From assembly GCA_029260905.1 (NCBI GenBank), contig JAJDCH010000015.1:1-35724 (forward strand): a DNA stretch of 35,724 nucleotides, given 5' to 3'. This DNA comes from Candidatus Levyibacteriota bacterium (lineage in GTDB: Bacteria > Patescibacteriota > Microgenomatia > Levybacterales > UBA12049). The position numbers and the translations under genes are program-made. Numbering within the stretch: the stretch's first letter is position 1; each line of letters begins with the position of its first letter. The notes below the pieces were generated by a model. The model was not told where the DNA came from, ran no database searches, and was given only the letters and a program-made list of their open reading frames with translations. Shown here in pieces: positions 1 through 8,140 of this stretch.

Positions 1-3000
1 ATTAAGCCTAGTTTGATATTGTCAATAAATTCTTTGATCTGGGCATTTTCAGTAATTATGTTTGGTGTTTGAGTATTGCCTTCATTCTGAGGAGAAATAG
101 TTACAGAGTTTGACAGATTGCCGTCTGATTTTACATAGATGAATGGATCATAAAAACCAGTTTGTAGGGTAATCATGATGTTGCCTTTTATGTTTTGATC
201 TGTATTGTTATACTTTTCAAGTGCTCGTCCTACAATAAAACCTTTATCAATTGTTTTGACTCCAACTCCTTGATTGTTGCTTGTTGTTATCAAGTCGCCG
301 GGTTTTATTTCTCCATTTTGAGAAGATACAAAAGTTTTGACAACACCAGTTAGACCAACTTCAATTGATTTGTTTCCATTATCAATTCCACCCAAAAATG
401 CAGGATTTTTTGAGGCAACACCAATTACGTTTTTGAAATTATCATCACAAAGAACAGCAAAACCTTGATCGTCAAGACAAACTATCGAGCCGTATGGTAT
501 ATCAGTAGATTCATCCTTCTTGAAATATTCAGCAAAGTCCGCAACACCCGATGTTTTATATGTTACACCATTTGATCCATTTCCCTGAATTGATCCAACA
601 AGTCCAAGGCCGTTTGTCTCAAAGTTTATGAAGTGATTGTTTGTTGAGACTGTAGATCCGGTATTTCCAAGTTTTATCAGCAGCCCATCAGCATCTGAGC
701 TAGTATCAGTATTATAGATCTGTGCTGAAGTACTGGTTCCTTTAGAATCTCTCACATCAAGAGCAAATGCTGGAACAGCCGTTCCCACTCCAAGTCGTTT
801 GTTAACAGCATCAAAGAAGAATGAGGAATCGACATCGAGAAGGTTTTTTGTGTTTATAAAAGGAATTGAACCAATTGAAAATCCTTCAAGCTTTATGCTT
901 TGTTTTTCAGGAATTACTATTCCAGCCTTGGCATTTAGCAATCCGTTCAAATTTATCTCTGATTCAGACCATCCTATGTTAATATTCCTGACTGATCCAG
1001 TTAATAGGTTAAAGGTATTGGCGTTGGATTTTATATTTTCTCCATTTATATTAAGATCGCCTGCAATTGTAGTATTGCCCTTCCTGTCAACAACGAATTT
1101 AGCAAATCCATCACTTTGACTGCTAATGAGATTTCCACTTCCATTTTGGTTGATGATAAGGGCGGATTGGTCATTGTCACTATTTGAGATAACCAGATTA
1201 TCAGCTATCTCAACAGCTCCTGAGGCTAAGCCCAGATTGTTACCTTCTGATGTATTTTGTAATGGTTTTTGCAAGTCTATTATTCCTGACCCATCGGGCG
1301 ATATTATTACATTTCCGTTTGATCCAGAGTTGCTTGAGAGGATAAGTGATTGTCCTGAAAGGCTGAAGTCACCACCAGTTGCCTGAAAGACTGGGTTTGC
1401 GGTTCCTCCAATTGTTAGATTTCCAATTGAATCAAGAGCAAGGATGACATTTTTTTCACCTGAGCCAACTTCAGTAATAGGTTTTAGTCCTTGAAGAAGC
1501 TGAGAGTTGTAGCTGTTTGAAACATTTGCTAATGATTGTCTGGGCTTTAGTTCGCGACCATTGCCAATTGTGATGCCTAGATAGAGTTCTTGGTTTGGGT
1601 TAAAAAGTGATTCATTGATAGCAGTGTTTTTACCAAGTGATACGGAAAATCTACCATCCAGATCAGGTGTTACTGTTTGTGACTCGCTCCAAAGCAAAGT
1701 ATTATTTGATGCTGCTTCATCATTGTAGATTGCAAATTTTATTTCTGTGGGGGTTTTTATTGGCTCCCCATCAGTATTGGTTAGTTTTCCTTGGAAAGGG
1801 ATTATCCTAGGCGTTGGGGATTGTGATTGTCCAAGCACTGCATTTTTTACAGCCTGATTATTGATTTTATTGTAAATGCTTAATCCTCCAAAAACCAAAA
1901 AAGCCAGAAGAAGCCCGAAGTGCACATAGTTGACTGTTTTTATTGAATGGTATTTGTGATACCAGTCTGGTCTTTTGAAGCGGATGTTGTGGATTAGTCT
2001 TTTCCAAAACGTAAGAGATGTTGTTGAAATACCAAGAGGCGCATACATTGTTTTTGGTAAGTTTCTTATAGAGCTGATCGGTTTTTTGTTGTTAGCTATT
2101 ATAAATCTGTCTAGAAGGCTAAGATGGTTAGCGCTTGAAACAGCTGACTGCTTAATTTGATTATCTTTTATGGCTGGAAGCATTTCTGAAATGGGTATAA
2201 ATACAGATTTGCCAGTTAGTTTCCAGAGATTGTATTTTAGTCCTATAAAAATTTTGGCGAGGGAAATTATGACTGCTCCATCAAGCAGCAAGAAGAGTAG
2301 GTGTTTGCTGACCTGCAAAAGCCTTAAGGGAGGAAAGCCTGAATACTCAGGAGAGATATTTTTTTCCCGATCGGGAATATATTCTTTTCGAGACTGGAGT
2401 GCGATAATGTTTGGAGAACTGGCCTGTTTTTCATTTGTATCAACATCAGTCTGGCTATTTTTTTGTGACAGGATTCTTGTTCTTGTCAGCTCTCTTTCAA
2501 GCTCAGTTATATTTTTTATTATACCTTTTTGAGATGCAAAGATAAGATATTTTCTGATTGAAGACAGTTTTCTGTTTATGCTGATAGGTGAGAGGCCTGC
2601 TTCAGTAAGAAGTCTTTTTTTGTATTCATTAACTACAGAAATGTTTACAGCAAATTCAGGATCATCCGATTGAGAAACCATGGTTACCCATTTGCTGAAG
2701 TGAACCATGTCAGCCATATAGTTCTTGATTGTATTTTTGCCTGATTTTGAGCTATAAAGATAGTTTTTAAATTCAGTCAGTCTCCATCTATCAATTATTT
2801 TAGGCTTTTGAGTAGGCAGTGTGGCTGGATTAAAGGAAAGAAGTTTGTGGTCAATTAAAAAGTCAAAGAACTTGGTGAGAGATGATGAATAGCGTTTTAT
2901 GGATCTCGGAGAAAGAGGAGAAATTTTTTTATATTCATTACCATATTCTAGCTCTGTAAGATAAAGCTCAATAATGCCTGGATTAATTCTTCTAGGCAAA

Positions 3001-3134
3001 AACTCTCTCTTAAGAGTGATCTGATACCAGGCTAAAAACTTCCTAACGTCGCTGAGATAGTTTTTAAGGGTTGTTTTATTTACCTTTCTATCAGCAGATT
3101 GAAGATATGCTTTAAATGCGTTTATTATTTCCAT
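1..3134 (-). CDS. Membrane-anchored surface protein, partial (C-terminus off the left edge): two tandem tyrosine-recombinase core-binding (SAM-like) domains + TM helix + tail-fibre-like extracellular region
   Basis: Hand translation of the minus strand from ATG at 3134 to the window edge found no stop (about 1044 codons). Begins MEIINAFKAYLQSADRKVNKTTLKNYLSDVRKFLAWYQ...LSPRSIKRYSSSLTKFFDFLIDHKLLSFNPATLP, followed by a second copy LTEFKNYLYSSKSGKNTIKNYMADMVHFSKW...LSPISINRKLSSIRKYLIFASQKGIIKN. Then TM VNYVHFGLLLAFLVFGGLSIY, then a repetitive beta-rich ectodomain with ...VADFAEYFKKDESTDIPYGSIVCLDDQGFAVLCDD...IGVASKNPAFLGG. Upstream in-frame stop at about 3162. Not listed in the ORF track because it runs off the edge. 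Confidence 0.88.
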   Translation of the reverse strand, partial: MEIINAFKAYLQSADRKVNKTTLKNYLSDVRKFLAWYQITLKREFLPRRINPGIIELYLTELEYGNEYKKISPLSPRSIKRYSSSLTKFFDFLIDHKLLSFNPATLPTQKPKIIDRWRLTEFKNYLYSSKSGKNTIKNYMADMVHFSKWVTMVSQSDDPEFAVNISVVNEYKKRLLTEAGLSPISINRKLSSIRKYLIFASQKGIIKNITELERELTRTRILSQKNSQTDVDTNEKQASSPNIIALQSRKEYIPDREKNISPEYSGFPPLRLLQVSKHLLFLLLDGAVIISLAKIFIGLKYNLWKLTGKSVFIPISEMLPAIKDNQIKQSAVSSANHLSLLDRFIIANNKKPISSIRNLPKTMYAPLGISTTSLTFWKRLIHNIRFKRPDWYHKYHSIKTVNYVHFGLLLAFLVFGGLSIYNKINNQAVKNAVLGQSQSPTPRIIPFQGKLTNTDGEPIKTPTEIKFAIYNDEAASNNTLLWSESQTVTPDLDGRFSVSLGKNTAINESLFNPNQELYLGITIGNGRELKPRQSLANVSNSYNSQLLQGLKPITEVGSGEKNVILALDSIGNLTIGGTANPVFQATGGDFSLSGQSLILSSNSGSNGNVIISPDGSGIIDLQKPLQNTSEGNNLGLASGAVEIADNLVISNSDNDQSALIINQNGSGNLISSQSDGFAKFVVDRKGNTTIAGDLNINGENIKSNANTFNLLTGSVRNINIGWSESEINLNGLLNAKAGIVIPEKQSIKLEGFSIGSIPFINTKNLLDVDSSFFFDAVNKRLGVGTAVPAFALDVRDSKGTSTSAQIYNTDTSSDADGLLIKLGNTGSTVSTNNHFINFETNGLGLVGSIQGNGSNGVTYKTSGVADFAEYFKKDESTDIPYGSIVCLDDQGFAVLCDDNFKNVIGVASKNPAFLGGIDNGNKSIEVGLTGVVKTFVSSQNGEIKPGDLITTSNNQGVGVKTIDKGFIVGRALEKYNNTDQNIKGNIMITLQTGFYDPFIYVKSDGNLSNSVTISPQNEGNTQTPNIITENAQIKEFIDNIKLGL

Positions 3135-4886
3135 AGGCAGTTTATTTTCACAGATTTTATTTTATGTATCATTAGCTTCAAGATTATACTGATTATACGC
3201 GTTATATAAATATTAGTACTATTATTAATAGCATAGATAAATCTATGAAAACTTGTCAAGAGGCAGATTTGATCTATTTAAGTTACATATGATATATTTA
3301 TTTAACTTTTTAAAAAGAACAAAAAATAAGCTTTTATATTAATTCTCATAATTTGAGGCTGTGAAATAAATCATTTTCACATATTTTTTATGAAAACATG
3401 AGGCTAAAGATGAATTTCTGGGGTAAGAGAATACTCAAAAAAGCTGTCAGAGACTAGAAAAAGAAAATCAATATTTAATATGAGATATATTTTAACATTT
3501 GTTATTATATATTAATAATTACCGATATTAAACATTCTCCATAAATAAAGCCTGTTTTTATACAAATTATCAATTCACATACACAATTGCTAGTTTTTTT
3601 TAAAGCTTGTTTTGGTTGATATATCGATAAAAAACAACAATATTAATATTGTAAGATACTATGTAGTAGTTTTATTGATTTGATAGTCTTATTTAAACTA
3701 AATCAATAAATGATATGTATTTACTATCAATATTAATTCCTATATTAAAAATTTTAATTTTTTGAAAATAATAAGAATAAATTCTGAGGCTAAAAATAAT
3801 AGCTTAAGAATAATTCACTGCTTTACAATTAAAAAAAAACATATATTTAACAATGAGAATCCAGTCAAATTACTGTATATTTGGTAGATAAAAATCTTTA
3901 TTTTATCTTATTAAATTAGCTTGATTTAACAGTCTGATCAATACAACTTGTAGTATGATGGTTCTACAACTTATAGTTAGTCTGTGGAAACAGATTATAA
4001 GATAATAAAAATATGTTATTTTTTGTGAAAAAATTCTTTTTTACAGCTTATAGATTTATTAATATGTAAAAAATAGTTTCTAAGCCTGTAAAAACTGATT
4101 ATAAATTTTTACTCATGAATTTATCTAAAATTGATATCCTTTGATATGTTTTATTTTTTTTAATTATAATCTTTTAGCTTTCAAATTGAATATTCGGGAA
4201 ATATATTAAGTCTTATATTTATATATTATATATGATTAGTATATTATTATGGGAAAAAGTTGTATTTTTGCCTCAATATAGTAAGTATTTAAATATTAAG
4301 CTTAAATTTTAGTGAAAAGATAGAAAGACTTCTTTTATCTTGCTTACGTTTAATTTTTATTGTTAAATATAGGATTTTGAGTATAAAATTACGTGATTAA
4401 AGATGGCGCGAGCTTGATTTGAGGCCAGAGCATAGGTAGGTGAGTGCTAGATGTGGCTCTGAAATATAGACAGTGGATTTTGTACATCTGTATGTTTTAA
4501 ATTGTCTTAGAAATGATTTGGTGACTTTTTAACTAAAATGTCCCGATAGCGAGTTGAATAACTTGATATTAGCAGAGTGTACTTAGAAGTGATAGATATT
4601 GAAAAGCTTGACAATACGGGACGTACATGTTTTTTTAAATAATCTACTTATGAAAGTGATTGTTTTAATAGCTTTATAATTAAAATTAGAATGAGTATTA
4701 TAAAACAATAATTATATTACTAATTTTAGATTAATTCTTATATTATTGCAATTAGATTTTAATAAAAATAAAAATCTGGATCATTGGTTTTAAAATTCTT
4801 TCACTTGGAGCTATATACATTTATTTATCTGCTCTGGTAGGACTGTGCATCTTATCTTAGTATTTACTTTGTGGTTAAACTTGAAA

Positions 4887-4905
4887 AGCTTGTTAATAAC
4901 AAGCT
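4887..4905. repeat. Perfect palindrome AGCTTGTTA-A-TAACAAGCT
   Basis: Read directly: 9-bp arms around a single central base, inside the AT-rich spacer. Confidence 0.7.
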
Positions 4906-5308
4906 ATCTCTAGAATTATGCCTCAAGTCTAACTGTGAACTTATTAATTTCTGGTGTGTGAGAATAATTATGTTTATTCAATATCTGTTTTAACTATAAT
5001 TTATATTAGCTTAAGACTATTTTAGTGAGTTGAAGCTTAGGTTAATTATTTAAAGCTTAAAATTAGTTAATTTTTAATAGTGTTTGTGGGGAAGAACGCA
5101 AGAAAAGAAGAAAATGCTTAATAATTTTATTAGGATATAAATACTAAAAAGATCAGTTGTTATTTCCAGTTTCATAAATGAAGCAAAAACCATATGATAT
5201 ACCTATAGTAAGCTACATTTAATATAGTAATTATTTTTACTCCATCAATAGGGACTTGTAGTAATAAAAATTTAATCATTTTTAGCCTCAAATACTTCTA
5301 TAAGACTT

Positions 5309-5323
5309 GTTCAATCTTTGAAC
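5309..5323. repeat. Inverted repeat GTTCAA-TCT-TTGAAC upstream of the HTH-TM gene
   Basis: Read directly: 6-bp perfect arms, just upstream of a candidate TTGACA -35 at 5333-5338. Confidence 0.55.
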
Positions 5324-5389
5324 TTATAAGCATTGACAAGCTGTTCAAATTATTGTTAACATAAATTAAAGTAATAATTACTTTTCTTC

Positions 5390-6859
5390 ATGCAGACTTC
5401 TAAAATTTATCATCTCTATTCAGCTAAAGAAAAAATAAGATTAATTTCTGAATATAAAAAAGGCGAAACAATTACTAATATTTGTAAAAAAGCAGGTATA
5501 TCACGCACTATATTCTATCGCTGGATTAAGCGTTTTGATGCATCAGTTGATAAAGAAACAGCGCTGGAAAACATGCACAAAAAAGGAGATCAGCACTGGA
5601 GACATCTTCCTGGTCTTAATGAATTTATTCTTAAAATTGTTTCAAGTCATCCGGAGCACTCATTATCAAGTCTTTTATCTGCAATTGAAGCAGAAAAAGG
5701 CAATGTTATCAGTAGAACAGGTCTTTACTATATTCTAAAAAGATATAATTTAACTGAGGCTGAATCAAGATATGCATATGCAGATGCGGTAAATACAATT
5801 ATTGGATCAACTGTAGCGCTTGAGACAAAACAGAAAGAGGAAGAACCAGTTGGAATAGCTGCAGAGAATGAAAATTTAGCATCAAAGAAAGAAAATAAAA
5901 CTTTTTTTCCGATCTGGCAAAGATCAGTATTTGCTGTTTGTATGGTTTTGATTTTGATTAATTCAGTTTTGATTTTGAGCTTAAATTTAAACGCTTTTGA
6001 TCTAGAGAGATTTATAGACCCTTTTAAGTTTACAAAAGTTAAAGAGGATGGAAAAGTACCAAAATTAGAGCTTGAGAAACCCTCAGATCAGATATTTATA
6101 CCAAAACATGTCTATCATCAGGATTTGAATTGGGGAGCTATGGCGTTTAATACAATTAAAAGCATTTACAAAAAAGGAGAGGCAATGACATTTGGTTTTG
6201 GATTTATCGATAACCTAGGTCAGACGATCTGTGATGCAGACATTGGATTGATCATTACAGATCAGGAAAACAAAACTCTTGGATCTCTCAATACGAATAG
6301 CAGAGGTGTAACACGCAGTAGCGAGTGTGGATTTGTAAGCGTCACAAACGTGCCTGATTATTTGGCAACGGTTTCAGCTGATTTGAAGGAGGGCAGATAC
6401 AATCTTCGTTTTACTACTGAAACCTACAATGGCAAACGCACTTTTGATGAGAGCATTTTAATTACTGATAGAGTACCGTTTGAGGTTGAACGAAAATCAT
6501 ATCCGTCAAGGATCTTCCCAAATGCAGAATATCCTGTAGAAATATGGATAAATGCAGAAAAAGATTTTGTTGGTGAAATAGAAGAGGAGATACCACATAT
6601 TTTGGAGATATCTGAAATATCAAGTGGCGGGATAAAAATCAATAAGTCAAATAATAGAAGTGTGGTACGCTGGAAGGTAAATTTGAGAAAGAATCAGGTT
6701 CACAAACTCAGATACACAATTGATTTTCCACCAACTTATCCTGCTTTTTATGAGGTAGGACCAATGGTATTTAAAGATAATAAATCAGCAGAAATTGTCT
6801 TTAGTGAGGCAAGATATTGGCAAATTGTTGCCGATAGCCTGCCACAAATAAAGCTTTAA
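5390..6859 (+). CDS. Transposase-type HTH (IS3/IS630-like) fused to a TM helix and extracellular region
   Basis: 489 aa. N-terminus YSAKEKIRLISEYKKGETITNICKKAGISRTIFYRWIKRFD is a classic transposase HTH. A second helical module LNEFILKIVSSHPEHSLSSLLSAIEAEKGNVISRTGLYYILKRYNL resembles IS630-type HTH. TM RSVFAVCMVLILINSVLILSLNLNAF. Beta-rich C-terminal ectodomain. No DDE catalytic domain seen. Confidence 0.85.
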   Translation: MQTSKIYHLYSAKEKIRLISEYKKGETITNICKKAGISRTIFYRWIKRFDASVDKETALENMHKKGDQHWRHLPGLNEFILKIVSSHPEHSLSSLLSAIEAEKGNVISRTGLYYILKRYNLTEAESRYAYADAVNTIIGSTVALETKQKEEEPVGIAAENENLASKKENKTFFPIWQRSVFAVCMVLILINSVLILSLNLNAFDLERFIDPFKFTKVKEDGKVPKLELEKPSDQIFIPKHVYHQDLNWGAMAFNTIKSIYKKGEAMTFGFGFIDNLGQTICDADIGLIITDQENKTLGSLNTNSRGVTRSSECGFVSVTNVPDYLATVSADLKEGRYNLRFTTETYNGKRTFDESILITDRVPFEVERKSYPSRIFPNAEYPVEIWINAEKDFVGEIEEEIPHILEISEISSGGIKINKSNNRSVVRWKVNLRKNQVHKLRYTIDFPPTYPAFYEVGPMVFKDNKSAEIVFSEARYWQIVADSLPQIKL

Positions 6860-6872
6860 TAATAAATAATGC

Positions 6873-6901
6873 TTGACATTTATCTTATAGTAGAGTAGAA
6901 T
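6873..6901 (+). promoter_or_regulatory. Sigma70-type promoter TTGACA-17-TAGAAT
   Basis: -35 at 6873-6878, 17-nt spacer, -10 at 6896-6901. The ATG at 6908 lies 6 nt after the -10. Confidence 0.7.
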
Positions 6902-6907
6902 CGCAAA

Positions 6908-8140
6908 ATGGCTGAAAGAATGAATCTAATTCACTGGGTAAAAGGGACAGTAAGACTTTCTGAGCATGAAAAGATACATAATGTTGGATTAAAAGCTTTT
7001 GGGTTGGCAACGAATGGAGGGGCAGTAATTTTCCTTGATGCTGCAAGCACAACAACTGATCCAAGGCTTGCAAGACTTATGGCCATCCCACTAGTTTTAG
7101 TAGGAGCTGGGTCTTTTGGACTAGGAACTTATGAGTCAGCGCTTTCAAACAAGAGAAGACTAATCCCTCCTGAAATAGAATCTGTAAAAACAACACATTC
7201 TGAAGAATATTCTCCGAGCATAGACACAATTAAGGAGTTTATACAGAAAGCAAAGCTGCTTACTAAAAAGGGAGATAGGTTATATCGCAATTTTAGAGGA
7301 GATCAAGAATCTAGCTTATCACTATCAATATATACAGGCCTTGATTCAAAGAGTGATACTGTATATTTTACAATTAGAGAAAAACCAATTCGTATTAATA
7401 ACAATAGAGTAAATACAGTAAAGAGATTAGAAATTGATGTTACTAATGGAGTTGCAACTGTAAAATTTAGACAAGAAATCGAAGCAAAAATAGAGAAAGA
7501 GAGAAGAAGTAGAGAGGAATCAATGAAAGCTGATGATAAGCTAAAAGCGCTTGATGAGTCTTTGGGTGATGCAAATCAAGAAGAGTTGGAAAACGCATTA
7601 GCTATATTGTCCTCTTTACGAGTAGAAGATGAAATAATTCGTCACAGCACTAGGTCAAGAAGTGAAACAGAGAGAGATAAAGCTGCTTCAGCTACGATAA
7701 AGAGAAAAACCAAAAGATTATTGACAATAGCTAAAGAAGAGGGTGTTATGTCTCAGAGAGATGGGTTTTCTAGCGCAGATTTTGACATAAACGGAAAAAC
7801 AGTTTCAGTTTTAACATCAGATACACCAAAAACCAGAAAAAGAGACAGTTATATATTGATAAAAATACCTGATATTGCAGGGCAAGGGGGAGGGTCTTTT
7901 TCAACAAGAGAATTTGTTCTGTATGGAAAAAAAAGTGAGCTCAGCATAAGGGAGTACGGAGGAGTTAATGAACACAACTCAAGTGGAAGAGGCATAGGAT
8001 CTCGTCAAGACCCTGAGGAATTTGTTAATAGTTCAGGATGGTTCAAGGATCTAGAGATTCCAACAAATGGTCAAGTGCAAGGTTTGTTGACAACACTTTC
8101 AACTCTTGGTATACAGTCATTGAGAGGGCAATCTCGTTGA
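6908..8140 (+). CDS. Hypothetical protein with N-terminal hydrophobic segments and a charged coiled region
   Basis: 410-aa ORF with a strong upstream promoter; two hydrophobic stretches near the N-terminus; no family recognised. Confidence 0.75.
   Translation: MAERMNLIHWVKGTVRLSEHEKIHNVGLKAFGLATNGGAVIFLDAASTTTDPRLARLMAIPLVLVGAGSFGLGTYESALSNKRRLIPPEIESVKTTHSEEYSPSIDTIKEFIQKAKLLTKKGDRLYRNFRGDQESSLSLSIYTGLDSKSDTVYFTIREKPIRINNNRVNTVKRLEIDVTNGVATVKFRQEIEAKIEKERRSREESMKADDKLKALDESLGDANQEELENALAILSSLRVEDEIIRHSTRSRSETERDKAASATIKRKTKRLLTIAKEEGVMSQRDGFSSADFDINGKTVSVLTSDTPKTRKRDSYILIKIPDIAGQGGGSFSTREFVLYGKKSELSIREYGGVNEHNSSGRGIGSRQDPEEFVNSSGWFKDLEIPTNGQVQGLLTTLSTLGIQSLRGQSR

Follow-up and report, generated by a model that had tools for sequence, protein, structure and literature searches.

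The window analysed here is a stretch of 35,724 nucleotides from Candidatus Levyibacteriota bacterium (GenBank assembly GCA_029260905.1, contig JAJDCH010000015.1, positions 1 to 35,724 of the forward strand). It contains a gene for a 489-residue protein, P0001, that joins helix-turn-helix (HTH) units to a transmembrane (TM) helix and an ectodomain. This gene shares a long leader with a divergent neighbour. The features of the locus are listed below.

3–3134, minus strand: divergent neighbour gene, running off the window; two Xer-type SAM-like units, TM helices, a fibre-type ectodomain and a Peptidase_G2-like region
3135–5389, no strand: shared leader of the two divergent genes, 2255 bp, AT-rich (23.4% G+C)
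3172–3200, minus strand: tandem GTATAATnnGTATAAT plus TTGAAGCTAA element in the 5' leader of the neighbour
3230–3259, minus strand: predicted sigma-70-type promoter of the neighbour
3354–5290, both strands: seven TGAGGC sites, consensus TTGAGGCTAAA, at 3354+, 3399+, 3785+, 4270-, 4420+, 4920- and 5285-
5333–5362, plus strand: promoter with embedded candidate operator; -35 box TTGACA at 5333–5338, dyad GTTCAAATTATTGTTAAC at 5343–5360, -10 box TAACAT at 5357–5362
5390–6859, plus strand: HTH-TM-ectodomain gene (P0001), an intact open reading frame with an AlphaFold model
5417–5545, plus strand: first HTH, residues 10–52, recognition helix SRTIFYRWIKRF (Pfam, AlphaFold)
5609–5749, plus strand: second HTH of the bipartite unit, approximately residues 74–120 (AlphaFold)
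5912–5992, plus strand: single TM helix, residues 175–201, N-terminus inside (hydropathy, AlphaFold helix, basic residues on the N side)
6116–6841, plus strand: ectodomain of two beta-sandwiches, stopping at a conserved domain boundary (homology, AlphaFold strands, alignment A3)
6908–8140, plus strand: 410-residue ORFan with a promoter of its own (read from the sequence); its start is predicted to be leaderless

The divergent SAM-TM gene on one side and a WxLIP-like gene on the other flank the P0001 gene and the ORFan. Most of the other genomes examined have the WxLIP-like gene, small secreted genes and leuS upstream of the SAM-TM gene; in some, this slot holds another divergent secreted gene, and a few loci differ. 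The ORFan, for which no relative was found in 59 other genomes, is preceded by TTGACA (6873–6878), TAGAAT (6896–6901) and then 6 nt to the ATG. Rfam returned just one tRNA as the non-coding RNA content of the window.

Domains of P0001

The preliminary description had read the N-terminal part of P0001 as the DNA-recognition part of an IS3/IS630-type transposase. Pfam and NCBIfam agree on transposase DNA recognition and correct the family, the nearest being IS481. Residues 10–52 match HTH_28, HTH_Tnp_1, HTH_29 and HTH_23 above the Pfam cut-offs; the second HTH matches HTH_32 below cut-off. In the first-named NCBIfam match, residues 15–126 correspond to positions 2–112 of the 284-residue IS481 transposase model. 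Since this match ends at position 112, only the N-terminal DNA-binding part is present and the catalytic part is missing; the domain search gave no DDE match, consistent with the earlier claim that the nuclease is absent. An Xre-type HTH was not matched in Pfam or NCBIfam either: the HTH is of the transposase type. Compared with solved structures, the first half of the HTH-pair profile (A1) resembles the Cgl2762 HTH and the second half the paired-like domain of Sleeping Beauty (5unk). The recognition helix is strongly conserved, with Ser38, Arg39 and Trp45 invariant.

An AlphaFold model (17-row alignment, mean pLDDT 76.7) bore out both the N-terminal and the extracellular part. It contains helical DNA-binding units at residues 12–51 and 76–118, a long helix at 124–150, the TM helix, and beta strands from 250 to 481. 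The TM helix, which had been placed at about 175–205, spans 175–201 in the model and 180–198 in a hydropathy scan, where it is the one strong segment (hydropathy 2.8). Because basic residues flank this helix on its N side, we place the HTH inside the cell. The beta ectodomain is also as described, at about 240 rather than about 280 residues. It is homologous to the ectodomain of a longer relative (L129/L206, i-E 2e-50) and to secreted proteins, and the C-terminal end of P0001 coincides with the end of the conserved domain in these homologues (alignment A3). Searched by fold, the ectodomain gave only unspecific matches to proteins with tandem beta-sandwiches, RbmA, alpha-2-macroglobulin and S-layer proteins among them. 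Homologues of the ectodomain that lack the HTH are secreted or signal-anchored surface proteins; one of them (L037, 6851–10693, plus strand) has an M23 peptidase domain inserted between the two beta domains.

P0001 is thus confirmed as a bipartite IS481-type DNA-binding region without nuclease, followed by an N-in TM helix and two extracellular beta-sandwiches. We rejected a recent frameshifted transposase remnant, since the reading frame is intact, homologues show an old and conserved architecture, and the promoter-operator is conserved. P0001 is an intact, old protein.

Relatives and long leaders

P0001 has relatives that the preliminary description had no means of seeing. Genes of an HTH-TM family occur in approximately 20 of the 288 genomes of the class, where they can be separated by score from true DDE-bearing IS481 transposases, and a few further members occur in other classes of the phylum. 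Such a gene encodes one HTH pair or two and then TM helices; in most cases a polysaccharide-synthase domain (GT2, PgaC/cellulose-synthase kind) comes next, and large surface domains follow. Two relatives, L129 (1739 residues, Curtissbacteria) and L126 (2866 residues), show the order HTH, TM, GT2, TM, with the ectodomain known from P0001 coming next; this ectodomain stands behind the GT2 part in both L129/L206 and L126/L201. L140 (2503 residues) combines HTH, TM and ectodomain without GT2. The HTH unit of P0001 falls in an eight-row clade (support 100/98) with L126, L127, L129, L131 and three Levybacteria genes (G018). P0001 itself has no GT2 domain, and its own genome contains neither a GT2 homologue at E ≤ 1e-15 nor an IS481 transposase match at E ≤ 1e-8. 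A search of one other genome of the genus gave no close orthologue, and the distribution across the family is patchy. By these comparisons, the fusion in P0001 belongs to a family and is not a one-off: P0001 is a short, GT2-less member of an old, patchy family of Patescibacteria, most members of which have the predicted HTH units ahead of a GT2 membrane glycosyltransferase. No match to P0001 turned up in the viral contigs scanned, which lends no support to a viral origin. Our literature search on Patescibacteria/Microgenomates and on HTH-glycosyltransferase combinations yielded no account of such a family.

Two kinds of gene recur beside HTH-GT2 genes. An exosortase-like gene adjoins those of L082, L139, L146, L147, L150 and L257 (Pfam-tested for L146 only), in agreement with the NCBIfam match of the L129 GT2 domain to the XrtP-associated glycosyltransferase. 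A small MerR-type regulator gene is divergent to those of L035, L128, L135, L143, L145, L151, L152 and L261.

Within a 367-kb sample of the genome of P0001, no intergenic gap is longer than the 2255-bp leader; the median gap is 30 bp. Leaders of HTH-TM genes are AT-rich and measure 285–2255 bp (median 678, n = 34), compared with medians of 72 bp for other genes of the same loci (p = 3e-19) and 50 bp for other large membrane-protein genes (p = 9e-14). Because these comparison genes have short gaps, and ectodomain homologues without HTH have leaders of just 0–435 bp, we consider the long AT-rich leader a trait of the HTH-TM family. Elsewhere in the same genome, a 1570-bp AT-rich leader with seven AACAGG lies upstream of a PMT-type glycosyltransferase gene (L170, 4143–5712).

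The divergent neighbour, found in 34 of 60 relatives and in nearly all of these as a single copy, has its own leader element. Its SAM-like units match the N-termini of XerD and XerC in tandem (NCBIfam), and of the 21 leaders of this gene, 15 hold the tandem GTATAATnnGTATAAT, which is absent from all other loci examined. These repeats may resemble the arms of dif sites. The neighbour, as read from its sequence, shows the same design as P0001 with Xer-type DNA-binding units and a private leader element. This agrees with the preliminary description, which had seen one design built from unrelated modules.

The shared leader also contains the TGAGGC hexamer seven times, with 0.24 expected, a score matched by none of 200 shuffles. 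These are occurrences, as the hexamer, of the 9-mer TGAGGCTAA, which in leaders of other genomes has nine exact copies in the HTH family (0.19 expected) and four in SAM-gene leaders (0.07 expected; none for the reversed word). With at most one mismatch, it also occurs three times in the 1060-bp leader of a TreT-like glycosyltransferase gene of the same genome (L189, 6142–7200). We rejected TGAGGCTAA as the main target of the HTH, since one genome (G022) has it without the HTH gene; the TreT-like leader, and a genome that has the word without the neighbour gene (G055), also speak against it as the site of the HTH. Its presence where one or other of the two genes is missing points to a separate binder.

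Candidate operator and recognition helix

Near the start codon of most family genes lies an element of the form TTGACA..GTTAnCATTAATGxTAACAT. In most family promoters, its dyad GTTAnCATTAATGxTAAC occupies the spacer between the -35 and -10 boxes and overlaps the latter. The copy in the window (5343–5362) scores 19.1 bits against a profile trained without the window, a value reached by none of 200 shuffles. It is the best T-type match of the whole window, the second best being the same site on the opposite strand, and is less symmetric, at 12 of 18 positions. All four sites in G018 (at most three mismatches) fall in leaders of the HTH-TM family. Good matches outside this family stay at background level in the eight genomes searched, and the genome of P0001 has none elsewhere. 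Six family genes have no readable operator (L146, L147, L148 at 4054, L152, L257, L262). A relic of IS481 terminal repeats was considered as the origin of the operator and is unsupported, as the repeats of related CPR elements read differently. In approximately 12 family genes, exactly 6 nt separate the -10 box from the assigned start codon, which suggests leaderless messages; a literature search on leaderless promoters in Patescibacteria/Microgenomates found nothing.

Base x before TAAC tracks the residue that follows Ser-Arg in the recognition helix. In every readable case Lys pairs with G, Phe with C and other residues with T. Within the class, all 11 Lys genes have G and 20 others never do; the one Phe gene (L139) has C, and 18 genes, including that of P0001 with Thr, have T. 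These counts leave out the six unreadable genes and include one base read by eye (L130); a recount gave 34 genes with a readable base, so that a shuffle test set up with 35 genes is given no weight here. The association of Lys with G has a Fisher value of 1e-8, which ignores relatedness. When the tree is built from the region downstream of the HTH, all six supported independent pairs (six of six) show Lys and G changing jointly (sign test p = 0.031); on a tree of the HTH unit alone, residue and base have just three joint changes. The covarying base was chosen after seeing the data, and a held-out class of the phylum agrees (Lys with G in L260, Phe with C in L258 and L259). Since base x falls at the place within an extended -10 (TGx) where no reading by sigma is expected, promoter function alone fails to explain it. 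The main reservation is that operator and HTH are adjacent, so that the two could travel as one whenever 5' ends of genes are exchanged.

A proposed self-targeting membrane protein and its counterparts

We hold with moderate confidence that P0001 is a membrane-anchored DNA-binding protein that targets its own promoter and probably represses it. The reasons for this reading are the architecture and topology, the GT2 family, the long leaders, the operator and its covariation with the recognition helix; computational support covers architecture, topology, family, operator and covariation. In the cytoplasm, the IS481-type HTH pair would bind the dyad between the -35 and -10 boxes, probably as a dimer, and the bound pair would most likely block RNA polymerase rather than activate it. 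The amount of P0001 in the membrane would thereby determine how strongly its gene is transcribed. Through the TM helix and the ectodomain with its two domains, this switch would sit in the envelope, and DNA binding could there respond to assembly or to the state of the surface. Most relatives have the same putative control module joined to a GT2 polysaccharide synthase; P0001 would carry it without an enzyme domain. The support is at the level of sequence; from it we infer DNA binding, repression, the sensing of a surface signal and the tethering of the gene to the membrane.

Several observations weigh against autoregulation. Joint transfer of gene 5' ends and the three joint changes on the HTH-only tree weaken the covariation, six family genes lack a readable operator, and the window operator is imperfectly symmetric. 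The MerR-type gene divergent to several relatives could be the real regulator there. Alternatively, P0001 might sense conditions outside and control other genes, chiefly the divergent neighbour, as a transmembrane one-component regulator in the manner of ToxR and CadC. An inside HTH, a single TM helix, an outside beta ectodomain and a 2.25-kb leader in common with the neighbour would suit this role, but the sole good operator match in the window is the promoter of P0001, this genome offers no other, and relatives with the neighbour gene mostly lack the HTH gene. We regard this explanation as unlikely. It is rather less likely still that P0001 is chiefly a tether, keeping its own gene or this part of the chromosome at the membrane (programmed transertion), and a regulator only in second place. 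Both DNA-binding membrane families have long AT-rich leaders and private leader elements, and membrane transcription factors have been linked to transertion in Vibrio (PMC9977878). A single operator per gene that overlaps the promoter nevertheless looks regulatory.

The invariance of Ser38, Arg39 and Trp45 and the covariation of the recognition helix with a promoter base make it improbable that the HTH fold has turned to protein binding with vestigial DNA-binding residues. Such a scaffold would resemble RodZ, which likewise links an HTH, a TM helix and a beta domain in envelope synthesis, and the relatives of P0001 are indeed envelope synthases. That a transposase fragment was joined to a surface gene by chance, or that such a fusion is decaying, could account for the missing close orthologue (one genome of the same genus searched) and the patchy distribution in the family. 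This explanation is already largely refuted, and we give it hardly any credence: the intact reading frame stops at a domain boundary, the promoter-operator is conserved, distant genomes have the parts in identical order, and the genome lacks an IS481 transposase match at the threshold given above.

If the autoregulatory reading is right, P0001 would form a feedback loop of the simplest kind: a DNA-binding module domesticated from a transposase would let a surface protein, or a polysaccharide synthase in relatives, read the promoter of its own gene while seated in the membrane. The cell surface may then talk directly to the gene that builds it. Patescibacteria have few known signalling systems, and such loops would give them simple envelope control. 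With the helix-operator rule, small fragments and ordinary laboratory hosts are enough to test the proposed loop directly. As a tentative extension, possible and far from assured, Patescibacteria may have turned transposase HTH pairs and tandem Xer SAM-like units into cytoplasmic tails of surface proteins, each gripping a private element in the leader of its own gene, so that a gene would be held and controlled at the membrane where its product is inserted.

RodZ combines HTH, TM helix and extracytoplasmic beta domain and is tied to envelope synthesis; its HTH is of the Xre type and binds MreB. Unlike RodZ, P0001 has a transposase-type HTH, and the helix-operator covariation points to DNA. PutA is an autogenous repressor, a membrane-associated protein that represses its own gene, as proposed for P0001; it is peripheral, binds with a ribbon-helix-helix domain and carries a different enzyme. 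The longer relatives share their GT2 domain with PgaC/IcaA-type synthases and the XrtP-associated glycosyltransferase, enzymes that are not known to carry HTH units. P0001 lacks this domain, but its HTH pair falls in one clade with theirs, and its gene has the promoter-operator conserved among them. With the IS481 transposase (NF033577), P0001 shares the N-terminal HTH pair; it has a TM helix and an ectodomain in place of the DDE domain, and the terminal repeats of related elements are unlike its operator. Transmembrane transcription regulators as a general kind have been surveyed (PMC10269533), and P0001 has their layout, in which a single protein combines a DNA-binding domain with one or more TM regions. 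The main text of this survey makes no mention of Patescibacteria, transposase, glycosyl or autoregulation. ToxR and CadC likewise hold a cytoplasmic DNA-binding domain, a TM helix and an extracytoplasmic domain in one chain. In contrast to these regulators, P0001 would bind with a transposase-type bipartite HTH pair, its relatives carry a GT2 polysaccharide synthase, and its regulatory target appears to be the promoter of its own gene.
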